From Armatimonadota bacterium (GTDB lineage: Bacteria > Armatimonadota > Fimbriimonadia > Fimbriimonadales > Fimbriimonadaceae), in the NCBI GenBank assembly GCA_027451905.1, contig DAIDHV010000004.1, positions 124,001 through 188,000 on the forward strand: a DNA stretch of 64,000 nucleotides, written 5' to 3'. The position numbers and the translations under genes are program-made. Positions 29,451 to 46,001 of this stretch are shown piece after piece. Every line of letters starts with the position of its first letter. Positions within the stretch are counted from its first letter, which is position 1. The notes beneath the pieces are model-generated. The model ran no database searches and was not told the origin of the DNA. It saw only the letters and a list, made by a program, of their open reading frames with translations.

Positions 29451-29582
29451 TTCTTAAAGCTACCTTTTTTGATCTAAATTGGCTGTTGACGGTCACCTTA
29501 TCGGGCCTAAATCCGCCTGAATCTGTCCGATACGGAGCGGCTGAACTAATGATCTCCAAATGTTCACCCTCAGGAGGGGGAT

Positions 29583-29735
29583 ATTGAACAATTGCCGATC
29601 CATGGCAGTTGTTAAAGGCGACCGTCTGAATTGTGCTGAAGTCAGACAGTTACAGACCATGTTCAGGTTCAAAAACTCTTCACATTGCGTCCCTGCTTCT
29701 GCCGGGGTCGGTGGGCTTTGAGTTCCTCAACACCC
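29583..29735 (-). repeat. structured repeat, copy A (inverted partner of 32405-32560)
   Basis: Read on the minus strand it starts right after the stop of the oxidase gene and contains three hairpins in the same order as copy B: I with TGGGT/GCCCA, II with GTCTGA at 29642-29647 pairing with TCAGAC at 29624-29629, and III with AACAATTGCC (29587-29596) and GGCAGTTGTT (29604-29613). The outer 25 bases (29583-29607) are identical to the reverse complement of 32536-32560. Base changes in stem I (U-G versus U-A) keep pairing, which suggests selection on RNA or DNA structure. No open frame is shared between the copies. Confidence 0.75.
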
Positions 29736-29737
29736 AT

Positions 29738-30994
29738 CTAGTCCTCAAAAAGCTCTTTCAAAAATGGATTTTGGAACTTCTTGTTTGGATCATACTTCTG
29801 GATCGTTTTCTTGAACTCTGATAATCCTGGATAGGATTGGGCTACTTGTTTGGGTTTCATAGCCCATAGCTTTCCCCAATGGGGCTTGGGTTGGTACTGG
29901 CTCAGAACAGATTCCACGAGAGGCAAAATTGCCTTGACCGAATGCCAATCTTTTTTCCATGTGAAGTGGATTCCCATTGCATCAACTGCACAAAATGGGC
30001 TCATGAGAGCAGAATCGGCGGCTATAGTTCTGATTTCACTTATCAAAAGATGCTTGTCAAAGGCACTTTGATGCGCATGCAGAGCCCGCAGGGCATCTTG
30101 GGCATAGGGTTGCGGTATCAAATATTCGGACTGAAGTTCCTCGCCATGGCTTGGGGTGAAGTCAAACTTAAAGTGCGGAAGCCGGTCAAAAGAGGGACCG
30201 GGGATATCCAATTGGTCAGTGCAGTTGACGGGATCCACATCAAGGATTGGATGGACCTTTTGCTGAGCCTTCGAAGCGCCGATTCCGTTCAAAAACCTGT
30301 CTGGTGAGGGCTCCGAGGGCAACCGCTTGACCCAAATTTGATCAAGGCAGTCCCCCTTCCACTGGGTAAAGAGGCTTACACTGTAGCCAAGACTCAGGAT
30401 TTCCATCAACTGGTTAACCGCAGATTCAAACTTTACATTCAGAAACACGGATTGAGCAATTTCAAAACGTGGCACTAGGGCCAGTTTCACCTCAACCAAG
30501 GCTCCAATCGCGCCGAGGTGAACCACGCACGCCTGAAAAAGCTCCGGATCGGCATGCTTGTCTACTTCTAACAATGAACCATCGGCAAGCACAAATTTAA
30601 GGGCTAACGCCTGGCTGCTCAGGCACTGATTTTGGAAGCCCGATCCATGGGTAGCCGTTGCAATAGCCCCCCCAACCGAAATATGAGGAAGCGAAGCCAT
30701 GTTCTTCAGGGCCAAGCCTTCTGAGTCTAAAACCAGAGAGAGTTCCCCGTACGTTATCCCTGCCTGAACCCATACTGAGCCCTCAATGCGGTCAATAGAC
30801 ACAACCCTAGAGAGGTTTCTCGAGCTAATAAAAACCTCGGTTGGTGATCCAATATGATTAAACGAATGACGAGTTCCAATCACCTTAACTGATGTGGCAC
30901 GGCTCACAAGATCCTGAACTTCTTCTGTTGAACTTGGCTGGTGAAAGTCAGTAGGGAAGTACTCAATATTGCCTGCCCAATTGGTGTTTGCCAT
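29738..30994 (-). CDS. FAD-binding oxidase of the alditol/aldonolactone oxidase type
   Basis: 418 residues from the ATG at 30994 (an upstream start at 31054 would add 20 unlike residues). The N-terminal FAD_binding_4 domain contains VIGTRHSFNHI, where the histidine is the expected covalent flavin site, plus SVGGAIATATHGSG and GAIGALVEVKLAL; the C-terminal part matches the ALO domain, ending with WAMKPKQVAQSYPGL-like residues. Relatives oxidise xylitol, sorbitol or sugar lactones with O2. It is divergent from a GH10 xylanase, which fits use of xylose-derived polyols, though the substrate is inferred. It lacks a signal peptide. Confidence 0.83.
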   Translation of the reverse strand: MANTNWAGNIEYFPTDFHQPSSTEEVQDLVSRATSVKVIGTRHSFNHIGSPTEVFISSRNLSRVVSIDRIEGSVWVQAGITYGELSLVLDSEGLALKNMASLPHISVGGAIATATHGSGFQNQCLSSQALALKFVLADGSLLEVDKHADPELFQACVVHLGAIGALVEVKLALVPRFEIAQSVFLNVKFESAVNQLMEILSLGYSVSLFTQWKGDCLDQIWVKRLPSEPSPDRFLNGIGASKAQQKVHPILDVDPVNCTDQLDIPGPSFDRLPHFKFDFTPSHGEELQSEYLIPQPYAQDALRALHAHQSAFDKHLLISEIRTIAADSALMSPFCAVDAMGIHFTWKKDWHSVKAILPLVESVLSQYQPKPHWGKLWAMKPKQVAQSYPGLSEFKKTIQKYDPNKKFQNPFLKELFED

Positions 30995-31159
30995 GGTGGA
31001 TTTCCATCCTAAGGTTACCGCTCTGTCTTCAGAGCCACAACAAAGAGAGGGCAAAAATCGAAAGTGATTTTTAAGGATTCGAGGAAGGCAATAAGGGGGC
31101 TTGAGTCTGATTTGTAAATCAAAGTGATGCCCTGTTATTAAATCATTTACAATGCGGTT

Positions 31160-32269
31160 ATGAACCGAAGATCGTTCATAACAAGTCTCGCCGCCGCTGC
31201 CATCGGGGCCCCCACCCTTTTGAAATCCTTAGCAGCCTTGCCAATAGAGTCCGATGAAGACCCTTCCAAAGGGCATCATACGATGACCCTCCGCCGCGCA
31301 GCCGCTAAGAGAGGATTGTTGTATGGTTCCGTTTTGTGGCCAGATTATCTTAAAAACCCCCTTCACGCCAAGCTATTTGAGACGCAGGTTGACATCGTCA
31401 CCAACACGGTCTATATGTCGGTGACTCAGCCAACTCGAGAAACTTGGTATCTCGATGACTTCAAAACTGTACGGAACTTCGTCCGCAAAGAGAAGTACCA
31501 CATGAGAGGCCATCCTTTGGTTTGGCATCAAGCCCTACCGCCTTGGGTCAATGATATCAGTTCGAAGGCAGATGCAGAATCTGTGATTACGGAGCGGATC
31601 AAAAAGCTGGTGGGATTGTATCCCGGTGAACTTCACTCTTGGGATGTTGTCAATGAAGCCATCGACACAAACTCCAAGGAAAAGCATCATCTAACCAAAT
31701 GTAAGTGGGCTGACCTGCTTGGCTTAGAGTATTTGGATTTGGCATTTGAAACGGCCTCGAAGGCCGATCCTATGGCCCTGCTGTCTTACAATGACTGGGG
31801 CACAGAGGATGATTCGGAAGGGTCTCAGCAAAAGAGGGATTACATCTATGAATTAGTTTCGGGAATGAAAAAGAGGGGCATTCCTGTTTCTGCTTTTGGA
31901 TTGCAGTCCCACATTTATCACGGCCAGACCTACAAGACATTGCCAGATTGGATCAAAAAAATGAAAGACCTTGGGCTTCATATTTTTCTTTCTGAATTGG
32001 ACGTGAATGATCAATCCCTGCCGGCAAACATCCACGAGCGTGACAAACTGGTAGCAGATTGTTACACAAGCTATTTAACCGCCGCGTTGAGTGTTCCGGG
32101 GGTGGAGGTGGTGCAAAACTGGGGACTTTCCGATGCCTTCTCTTGGTTGGAAACAATGCCATTTAGCAAAAGAAAAGATGGGTTGCCCGTACGTCCGCTG
32201 CCATTTGATGCTCACTTCCGGCCCACCGACGCATATTACGCAATGGAAAAAGTGTTTCTATCCAAATAG
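31160..32269 (+). CDS. GH10 endo-1,4-beta-xylanase with Tat signal
   Basis: 369 residues. The N-terminus NRRSFITSLAAAAIGA is a twin-arginine signal, so the folded enzyme is exported. The GH10 TIM barrel shows RGHPLVWHQALPPWV, the acid/base glutamate in WDVVNEAID, NDWGTEDDS, FGLQSHIYHG and the nucleophile in FLSELDVND, followed by VQNWGLSDAFSWL. It cleaves xylan backbones. TACAAT at 31148-31153 lies 6 nt before the ATG. The gene and the divergent oxidase are enclosed by inverted structured repeats at 29583-29735 and 32405-32560. Confidence 0.94.
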   Translation: MNRRSFITSLAAAAIGAPTLLKSLAALPIESDEDPSKGHHTMTLRRAAAKRGLLYGSVLWPDYLKNPLHAKLFETQVDIVTNTVYMSVTQPTRETWYLDDFKTVRNFVRKEKYHMRGHPLVWHQALPPWVNDISSKADAESVITERIKKLVGLYPGELHSWDVVNEAIDTNSKEKHHLTKCKWADLLGLEYLDLAFETASKADPMALLSYNDWGTEDDSEGSQQKRDYIYELVSGMKKRGIPVSAFGLQSHIYHGQTYKTLPDWIKKMKDLGLHIFLSELDVNDQSLPANIHERDKLVADCYTSYLTAALSVPGVEVVQNWGLSDAFSWLETMPFSKRKDGLPVRPLPFDAHFRPTDAYYAMEKVFLSK

Positions 32270-32298
32270 CGGTTTCTGATCACTCTCTAAGTGCCGAT

Positions 32299-32323
32299 AG
32301 GGCTGACTTCACAAGTCAGCCCT
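32299..32323 (+). terminator. perfect hairpin after the xylanase gene
   Basis: AGGGCTGACTT (32299-32309) pairs perfectly with AAGTCAGCCCT (32313-32323) around a 3-nt loop, 29 bp after the xylanase stop. There is no T-run, so it may be a stability hairpin or a non-canonical terminator. Confidence 0.6.
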
Positions 32324-32404
32324 GAAATGGCCTTGGCCCTCTCGACCAACTTAAGCCTTAGAATTCAACCTTAGAACTCGGCTGGTGGCTAGATCAACCG
32401 TTTA

Positions 32405-32560
32405 GGTGGGTGTTAAGGAACTCAAAACCCACTTAGCCCAACAAGAGCCGGGACCATACAGGAAAGTGCTGTACACCTGAACATCGGCGGTAACCGTCTG
32501 ATTTTAGCGCAAATCAGACTGTTAACTTGAACAATTGCCATGGATCGGCAATTGTTCAAT
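32405..32560 (+). repeat. structured repeat, copy B (inverted partner of 29583-29735)
   Basis: Three hairpins in order: I GTGGGT (32406-32411)/ACCCAC (32427-32432); II GTCTGA (32496-32501)/TCAGAC (32514-32519); III GAACAATTGCC (32529-32539)/GGCAATTGTTC (32547-32557) with a 7-nt loop. Between hairpins the sequence diverges more than in the stems, apart from shared blocks such as GGAACTCAAA and CTGAACAT. The outer end overlaps the stop codon of the facing aminopeptidase gene. The stretch 32324-32404 between the hairpin above and this repeat shows nothing further. Confidence 0.75.
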
Positions 32561-33800
32561 GCCCTTCTAGGGTCCACTCCCCATTTTTCATGAGGCTTAT
32601 TGTTCCTTGAGACTTGGTTTTGGCGGCCACGTCAATTTGAGATGACCCGATCATCCAATCCACATGGATTAGGCTATCGTTGGCACCATCTTCAAGTTGC
32701 TTCTCCTTAGATAAGTTTTCGAACCCTTCCATATTCTCGGAATAGCATCGGCCCAATGCGATATGCGAAGCCGCATTTTCATCATAGAGCGTATTGAAAA
32801 AGAGAGTCTTTGATTGAGAAACTAGGCAGCTATCTGGTACCAATGCCACCTCACCCAAGCGCCTTGCCCCGGGATCAGTTTCTATAAGCTTCAACAAAGT
32901 TTCTTCTCCTACCGAGGCAGAAGCTTTTGTAACCGCCCCGCTTTCAAACTCCATTTGGATCTTATCTATCAGTTGACCGCGCACGCTCAGAGGCTTTGTA
33001 CTTGAAACAACCCCGTTGACGTTTGACCTATGAGGCATCGTAAAAACTTCTTCCGTCGGGATATTGGGTCCGCATTTCACGCCATTTTTTGCATAGCCCC
33101 ATCCTCCTTGCCAAACTGCGTTGTTGGCAAGACCAACTGTTAAATCTGTTCCAGGACCGGTGAAGTGAAGCTCGGTAATCTGAAGTTTATTGAGTTCATC
33201 TTTCTTGGCCTCTAATGTATTGCAATGTTTATTCCAAGTTTCTAAGGGGTCCGATTCAAGGACCCGCGAGGTGTATAAAATGGAATGCCAAAGCTTATCC
33301 ATTGCTTCGTCAACTGGCAAATCGGGAAAGACCAATTTGGCCCAGCCAGGGCTTGGCGCCCCAATCAGGCTCCAATTTATTTTGAAACCGCTGATGACTT
33401 CTGAAACAGGCAGGGCCGCAATCCCTTGAGCTTTCGAAGACTTGGCGATCTTATCTGGTGAAACCGATTTCAGCAAATTGGGGTCATCACTAATGATCGC
33501 CAAGGATGCTGCGTTCTGATTGTAGGCTTCAGTCAATGCGTTATAGAGCCAACCCGGTGCGTACTCGATCGCCTCATCAGAGCCAAATTCATACCTCAGA
33601 AGCCCAACTTTTTCATCAACAAAAATGACTTGAACGTTTTTTGCTCCCGAGCGATAAGCCTCTTCAACAACGTACCGAACGAGGGGCAGATTTTGGATAT
33701 CTGATCTTAAAATCAGTTCTTGCCCCTTTGCCAAGCCAACTCCGCCATGGATGGCAAGTTTGGCATATAAAGCTAGATTTTCTTGGTGGCTTCTACTCAT
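32556..33800 (-). CDS. M29 family aminopeptidase
   Basis: 414 residues, the normal size for thermophilic-type aminopeptidases of family M29 (AmpS, PepS, aminopeptidase T). Features include KGQELILRSDIQNLPLVRYV near the start, LHFTGPGTDLTVGLA, the metal-binding NIPTEEVFTMPHR and VALVPDSCLVSQ. It releases N-terminal residues from peptides in the cytoplasm using two metal ions. TACACT (minus strand 33808-33813) precedes the ATG by 7 nt. The stop codon lies inside the outer end of structured repeat B. Confidence 0.93.
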   Translation of the reverse strand: MSRSHQENLALYAKLAIHGGVGLAKGQELILRSDIQNLPLVRYVVEEAYRSGAKNVQVIFVDEKVGLLRYEFGSDEAIEYAPGWLYNALTEAYNQNAASLAIISDDPNLLKSVSPDKIAKSSKAQGIAALPVSEVISGFKINWSLIGAPSPGWAKLVFPDLPVDEAMDKLWHSILYTSRVLESDPLETWNKHCNTLEAKKDELNKLQITELHFTGPGTDLTVGLANNAVWQGGWGYAKNGVKCGPNIPTEEVFTMPHRSNVNGVVSSTKPLSVRGQLIDKIQMEFESGAVTKASASVGEETLLKLIETDPGARRLGEVALVPDSCLVSQSKTLFFNTLYDENAASHIALGRCYSENMEGFENLSKEKQLEDGANDSLIHVDWMIGSSQIDVAAKTKSQGTISLMKNGEWTLEGH

Positions 33801-45924: not shown

Positions 45925-46001
45925 TGGTACTCCGAACGGGATTCGAACCCGCGATCTTTGCCGTGAGAGGGCAATGTCCTAAACCGCTAGACGACCGGAG
46001 C
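45925..46001 (-). tRNA. tRNA-Glu (anticodon CTC)
   Basis: A full cloverleaf of 77 nt with encoded CCA: acceptor GCTCCGG pairs with TCGGAGT (G-T pairs at both ends), D arm TCTAGCGGTTTAGGA, anticodon stem TTGCC/GGCAA around the loop CTCTCAC, and T arm CGGGTTCGAATCCCG. The anticodon CTC reads GAG. Its 3' half is duplicated at 45711-45755. Confidence 0.95.

Follow-up and report, generated by a model that had tools for sequence, protein, structure and literature searches.

The two inverted repeats, A and B, that flank a xylanase/oxidase gene pair in the DNA studied here (a stretch of 64,000 nucleotides, hereafter the window) are very probably members of a dispersed family of non-autonomous MITEs, moved in trans by an IS5_4/IS1182-like transposase and since decayed. 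The first-pass annotation had seen in them either a module moved by its ends or a structured RNA placed after each gene, neither of a form known to it. The form is in fact a known one, that of a MITE, and only the lineage-specific family is new. The idea of a mobile xylanase module or of a new RNA can thus be set aside as a false lead, and the gain is a MITE family with a candidate IS parent type.

Copies A and B and their family in the host genome

The features of the locus are listed below; window coordinates are positions on contig C4 minus 124000.

29573..29741, + strand: MITE copy A (alignment row L022), full length, C4:153573-153741, covariance model E 2.1e-38
29738..29740, - strand: oxidase stop codon TAG, composed of the boundary TA and the first base of copy A (its inner end)
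29738..31054, - strand: FAD sugar/aldonolactone (ALO)-type oxidase, a neighbour outside the element, PF01565 and PF04030
31160..32269, + strand: GH10 xylanase, a neighbour outside the element, PF00331, E 2.8e-67
32402..32570, - strand: MITE copy B (alignment row L001), full length, C4:156402-156570, covariance model E 1.5e-40
32556..32558, - strand: aminopeptidase stop codon TGA, within copy B; the reading frame enters the element by a few codons
32556..33800, - strand: M29 aminopeptidase, a neighbour, PF02073

Much of the original description holds. The two repeats are opposite to each other, the first 25 reported bases (ATTGAACAATTGCCGATCCATGGCA) are identical in both, exactly one divergent gene pair lies between them, with the Pfam domains expected of a GH10 xylanase and a FAD oxidase, no transposase is found there, and the stop codon of the aminopeptidase does fall within copy B. 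The oxidase stop codon is likewise supplied by a repeat, at the inner end of copy A, a point absent from the first-pass annotation. The limits first given, 29583-29735 and 32405-32560, are widened by the genome-wide alignment to those listed above. In the family alignment, copy A has lost its left target TA (now GGA) and ends in CTAG on the right, and copy B, read on the minus strand, starts with CTAG (32570-32567) and ends with CTAA (32405-32402).

The repeat recurs in the host genome well beyond what chance would give. A blastn search with copy B returned 24 matches at E < 1e-20, itself included. A covariance model built from 24 copies found 26 full-length copies in the 2.87-Mb genome (E about 1e-34 or lower) as well as several short forms. 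The full copies are dispersed over 9 contigs; the element is about 165 bp long, and contains no ORF, conserved or otherwise, and no transposase. Thus it is short (<500 bp), non-coding, multi-copy and dispersed, as MITEs are. The family alignment is nearly gapless over its 169 columns; mean pairwise identity is 81%, and the copies diverge in a star-like manner from a single consensus, to which they are 72-97% identical (84-97% for the main type, i.e., without the variant copies L025 and L026, which stand at 72-76%). These two variants (G000:C9:100935-101103 and G000:C1:15405-15573, respectively) form a subfamily, in which hairpins two, three and the last differ in sequence and yet pair.

A and B are 72.8% identical in the family alignment, and by pairwise identities B is nearer to L002 (84%) and A to L009 (82%). 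Since each is nearer to copies elsewhere, B did not arise by local duplication of A, and the local inversion-duplication that the first-pass annotation had considered does not account for the pair.

The covariance-model search of host and relatives proposed at the outset gave no copies in 100 relatives, and blastn gave none in 60. An exact core pattern was absent from 11.3 million public genome contigs, another core pattern had no match in viral contigs, and blastn with the consensus none in plasmids and phages; these public collections may omit records very near the host genome. Absence from related genomes had been named as an outcome that would speak against the repeat, yet the host holds many copies, and for this reason we regard the feature as real and lineage-specific, in the sense that it is absent from the other genera searched, among which there was no genome of the same genus.

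Element ends and candidate parent elements

Each copy begins with CTA-nGAGGGTGTTGA, and the inverse, CTA-GGTGGGTGTTGA, stands at the other end; in full, the ends are (C)TA-nGAGGGTGTTGAACAA and, from the opposite side, (C)TA-GGTGGGTGTTGAGGAA. The terminal inverted repeats expected of a MITE are present, with CTAGGAGGGTGTTGA and CTAGGTGGGTGTTGA matching at 14/15 positions in the consensus. At the left boundary, C is found in 20/24, T in 21/24 and A in 24/24 copies, and at the right boundary TA(G) in 21/24, 20/24 and 18/24, whereas the first base of the element on the left is unusually variable. TA is therefore conserved at both ends across copies, as a YTA(R) boundary, which would fit a TA target duplication.

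The exact end pattern was searched in 150 relatives and had two matches outside the host genome. One (L098) lies within a histidine-kinase-like gene and was taken as chance. The other (L100, in genome G116 of the same bacterial family) sits where an IS5-type element ends, some 165 bp past a decayed DDE transposase gene, and it was this match that led to the parent type: a search with the linked transposase returned four more elements, in G012, G022, G119 and G121. In all, five best-class IS5_4 elements (L110/L123, L111/L122, L112/L121, L113/L119 and L114/L120) have matching TA-flanked ends, so that in these five relatives the ends of the MITE are also those of transposase-encoding elements. 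Examples of these ends are ACTA-GGAGGGTGTTGAGTAATCC and CCTA-GCAGGGTGCTGAAAAAG, and, given as pairs, CTTA-GGAGGCTGTTGAGCAAC / ACTA-AGAGCTTGTTGAGGAATC, AATA-AGAGTTTGTTGTCCAACC / TTTA-TGAGACTGTTGACGAACC, ACTA-ACAGGGTGCTGAAGAAGC / CCTA-GCAGGGTGCTGAAAAAGG and CCTA-GCAGGGTGCGGAAAAAGC / TCTA-GCAGGGTGCGGAGAAAGG. They, too, vary at the first base, as the MITE does. In a shuffled-motif control covering 28 IS loci, all five best-class elements scored p 0-0.02; the 23 weaker loci mostly gave p > 0.1, and only three gave p <= 0.025, one of these being a relic that shares its genome with L119.

The four intact transposases contain PF05598 and PF01609 domains and score above the cut-off of NCBIfam IS5_4 (NF033581) and below that of IS1182. 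Their elements (L111-L114) share with the MITE the TA-flanked ends of type nGAGGGTGTTGAnnAA, the variable first base and, in two cases, insertion at a stop codon. They differ from it in length (1.27-1.33 kb) and in carrying a transposase gene; the likeness is confined to the terminal ~15 bp, and the interior of the MITE bears no resemblance to them.

No PF01609 (DDE_Tnp_1), PF01797 (Y1), PF13358 (IS630-type DDE_3) or NF033581 match was found in the host genome, so no helper of these types stands beside the element today. The possibility that the element is itself an autonomous IS5_4/IS1182-like one was discarded on the same grounds, with no ORF inside and neither PF01609 nor NF033581 in the genome. 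Weak end-motif matches in the host (L150-L158) do not form paired ends around a transposase-sized gap. We infer that the family was mobilised in trans by an IS5_4/IS1182-like transposase and that the helper was later lost. Such a DDE transposase would act in trans and cut the element at its ends; insertion would take place at YTA(R) sites, mostly at or just behind stop codons and in either orientation; and, after amplification, the copies would decay independently, with the transposase no longer detectable in the assembly.

Palindromes, clear hairpins and intergenic position are also the marks of REP/BIME-type repeats moved by a RAYT (Y1 transposase), and the genome contains two solo palindromes of 35 bp that would suit such an origin. 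Y1_Tnp (PF01797) is, however, absent from the genome, and the ends match TA-flanked IS5-type inverted repeats, which REPs lack; we consider this origin extremely improbable. The solo palindromes (L096, G000:C8:29922-29956, and L097, G000:C3, about 104656) are near-perfect, each being no more than the element's two ends joined by a short loop; both lie at gene 3' ends, and the one on C3 forms a TAG stop. Integron attC sites were considered and dropped as a candidate: the copies are dispersed singly and form no array.

Gene ends, the enclosed gene pair and related systems

A gene end lies within 60 bp of, or inside, 17 of the 26 copies, and in nine of the 26 the boundary TA and the next base make up the stop codon of the neighbour; the surrounding genes were called by ORF scoring and not from curated annotation, so that both counts are approximate. 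Only 12-13% of non-disruptive CTAG or YTAR sites in the window coincide with stop codons, which gives a binomial P of ~0.004 for nine in 26. Likewise, of the four intact IS elements of the parent type, two sit on a neighbour's stop codon with their right ends (L111 and L113, where TA and the first IS base form TAA or TAG). The stop-codon preference common to the MITE and the two IS elements is clear and gives a testable detail of the way in which IS5/IS1182-type transposases come to settle at harmless sites at gene ends. The 3'-end bias can be explained by selection against harmful insertions or by a true preference of the transposase, either of which suffices.

A and B would then be two independent insertions, A at the oxidase gene's 3' end and B where the xylanase and aminopeptidase genes converge. 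As they are only two of ~26 scattered copies favouring gene ends, their bracketing of the xylanase/oxidase pair is most likely a coincidence. One may suppose instead that A and B acted jointly as ends and moved the pair as a composite module. The repeats are inverted around it, and the oxidase is patchy, being present in 1 of 60 relatives, where (L149) no GH10 gene adjoins it. Against this, the 24 other full copies stand alone, without xylanase or oxidase genes; A and B are not closest kin; with 26 copies in a 2.87-Mb genome, chance alone would place about 0.6 pairs of neighbours within 2.7 kb of each other; GC stays level from A to B; A is decayed at its left end; and the host genome has none of the transposases looked for. 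A composite module is thus highly improbable, and the idea of movement by the ends applies to each repeat singly, not to the gene pair. Orthologous aminopeptidase loci were sought in public genome contigs, and none was confirmed.

Comparable elements are described in other bacteria. Correia elements, the MITEs of Neisseria, duplicate a TA target, and we know of no sequence relation between them and the host family. They resemble it in size (100-200 bp), in being multi-copy and non-coding, and in having terminal inverted repeats and possible RNA hairpins, but lie mainly upstream of genes (PMC10969869), whereas the host family favours gene 3' ends. QMITE2 of Coxiella burnetii, a MITE of 150-190 bp, is closer in position: most copies lie in 3' untranslated regions, where they may provide a gene with codons or its stop, and there are long and short (REP-like) forms. 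Its direct repeats vary in sequence and measure 7-11 bp (PMC5896051), where the host MITE has YTA(R) ends. IS1272/TnSha1 of staphylococci (IS1182 family) has a distantly related type of transposase and the same preference in place, as it aims at the terminator hairpins behind genes; it replaces the target stem-loop without duplication and without preference for primary sequence (PMC5678879, PMC4923244). Replacement of the IS1272 type would fit the 3'-end bias of the host MITE, although conservation of the YTA(R) boundary points to some preference for sequence. We would give a small chance to a helper that aimed, IS1182-like, at gene ends (stop codon and terminator hairpin), with the hairpin body serving as a replacement terminator or insulator and the solo palindromes of two terminal repeats as the minimal mobile form; insertions behind genes would then be tolerated or even useful.

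Hairpins and the structured-RNA reading

The hairpins described as common to A and B are borne out by the family consensus, although their number is five, not three. Selection for a structured RNA behind genes, or for a 3'-UTR element such as a terminator or a hairpin that stabilises RNA, could account for them, and the proximity of gene ends noted above would agree with it. Copies B and L002 fold far better than shuffled sequences (z -5.7 and -8.4), the alignment has 16 covarying pairs vs 7.9 in column shuffles (0/500), and the variants L025 and L026 retain their hairpins via paired changes. These two copies, however, contribute most of the paired changes (17/28 cells). The 22 main-type copies show 11 compensated pairs, with 5.0 +/- 2.2 expected by shuffling, vs 138 broken ones; conservation of stem columns (0.896) barely differs from that of unpaired columns (0.870), and copy A folds hardly better than its shuffles (z -1.9). 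Stems are not kept in each copy by compensation, and as broken pairs far exceed compensated ones in single copies, a maintained structured RNA is not supported. In addition, copies behind genes occur in both orientations, the consensus has no T-tract after the last hairpin, and an Rfam scan of the window matched a tRNA at 45928-46001 only and not the element. Of the suggestion of an RNA after each gene, the position at gene 3' ends is retained, and the RNA itself appears very unlikely. The decay of stems in the copies indicates that the hairpins belonged to the active element and its variants, and that single copies drift.

Template switching in palindromes may account for some of the excess compensated changes. 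In L011 (G000:C5:181155-181189), unlike every other copy, the last hairpin runs the opposite way, which points to hairpin flipping or template switching.

Two further loci are rearranged. At L006/L027 (G000:C2:449660-449897) a copy has its first hairpin twice, and the two halves are set apart by ~45 bp of foreign sequence. L095 (G000:C5:106700-107050) holds two variant pieces, a shortened element and a fragment, and the same ~100-bp flank follows both; this is a tandem duplication that takes in the element end.
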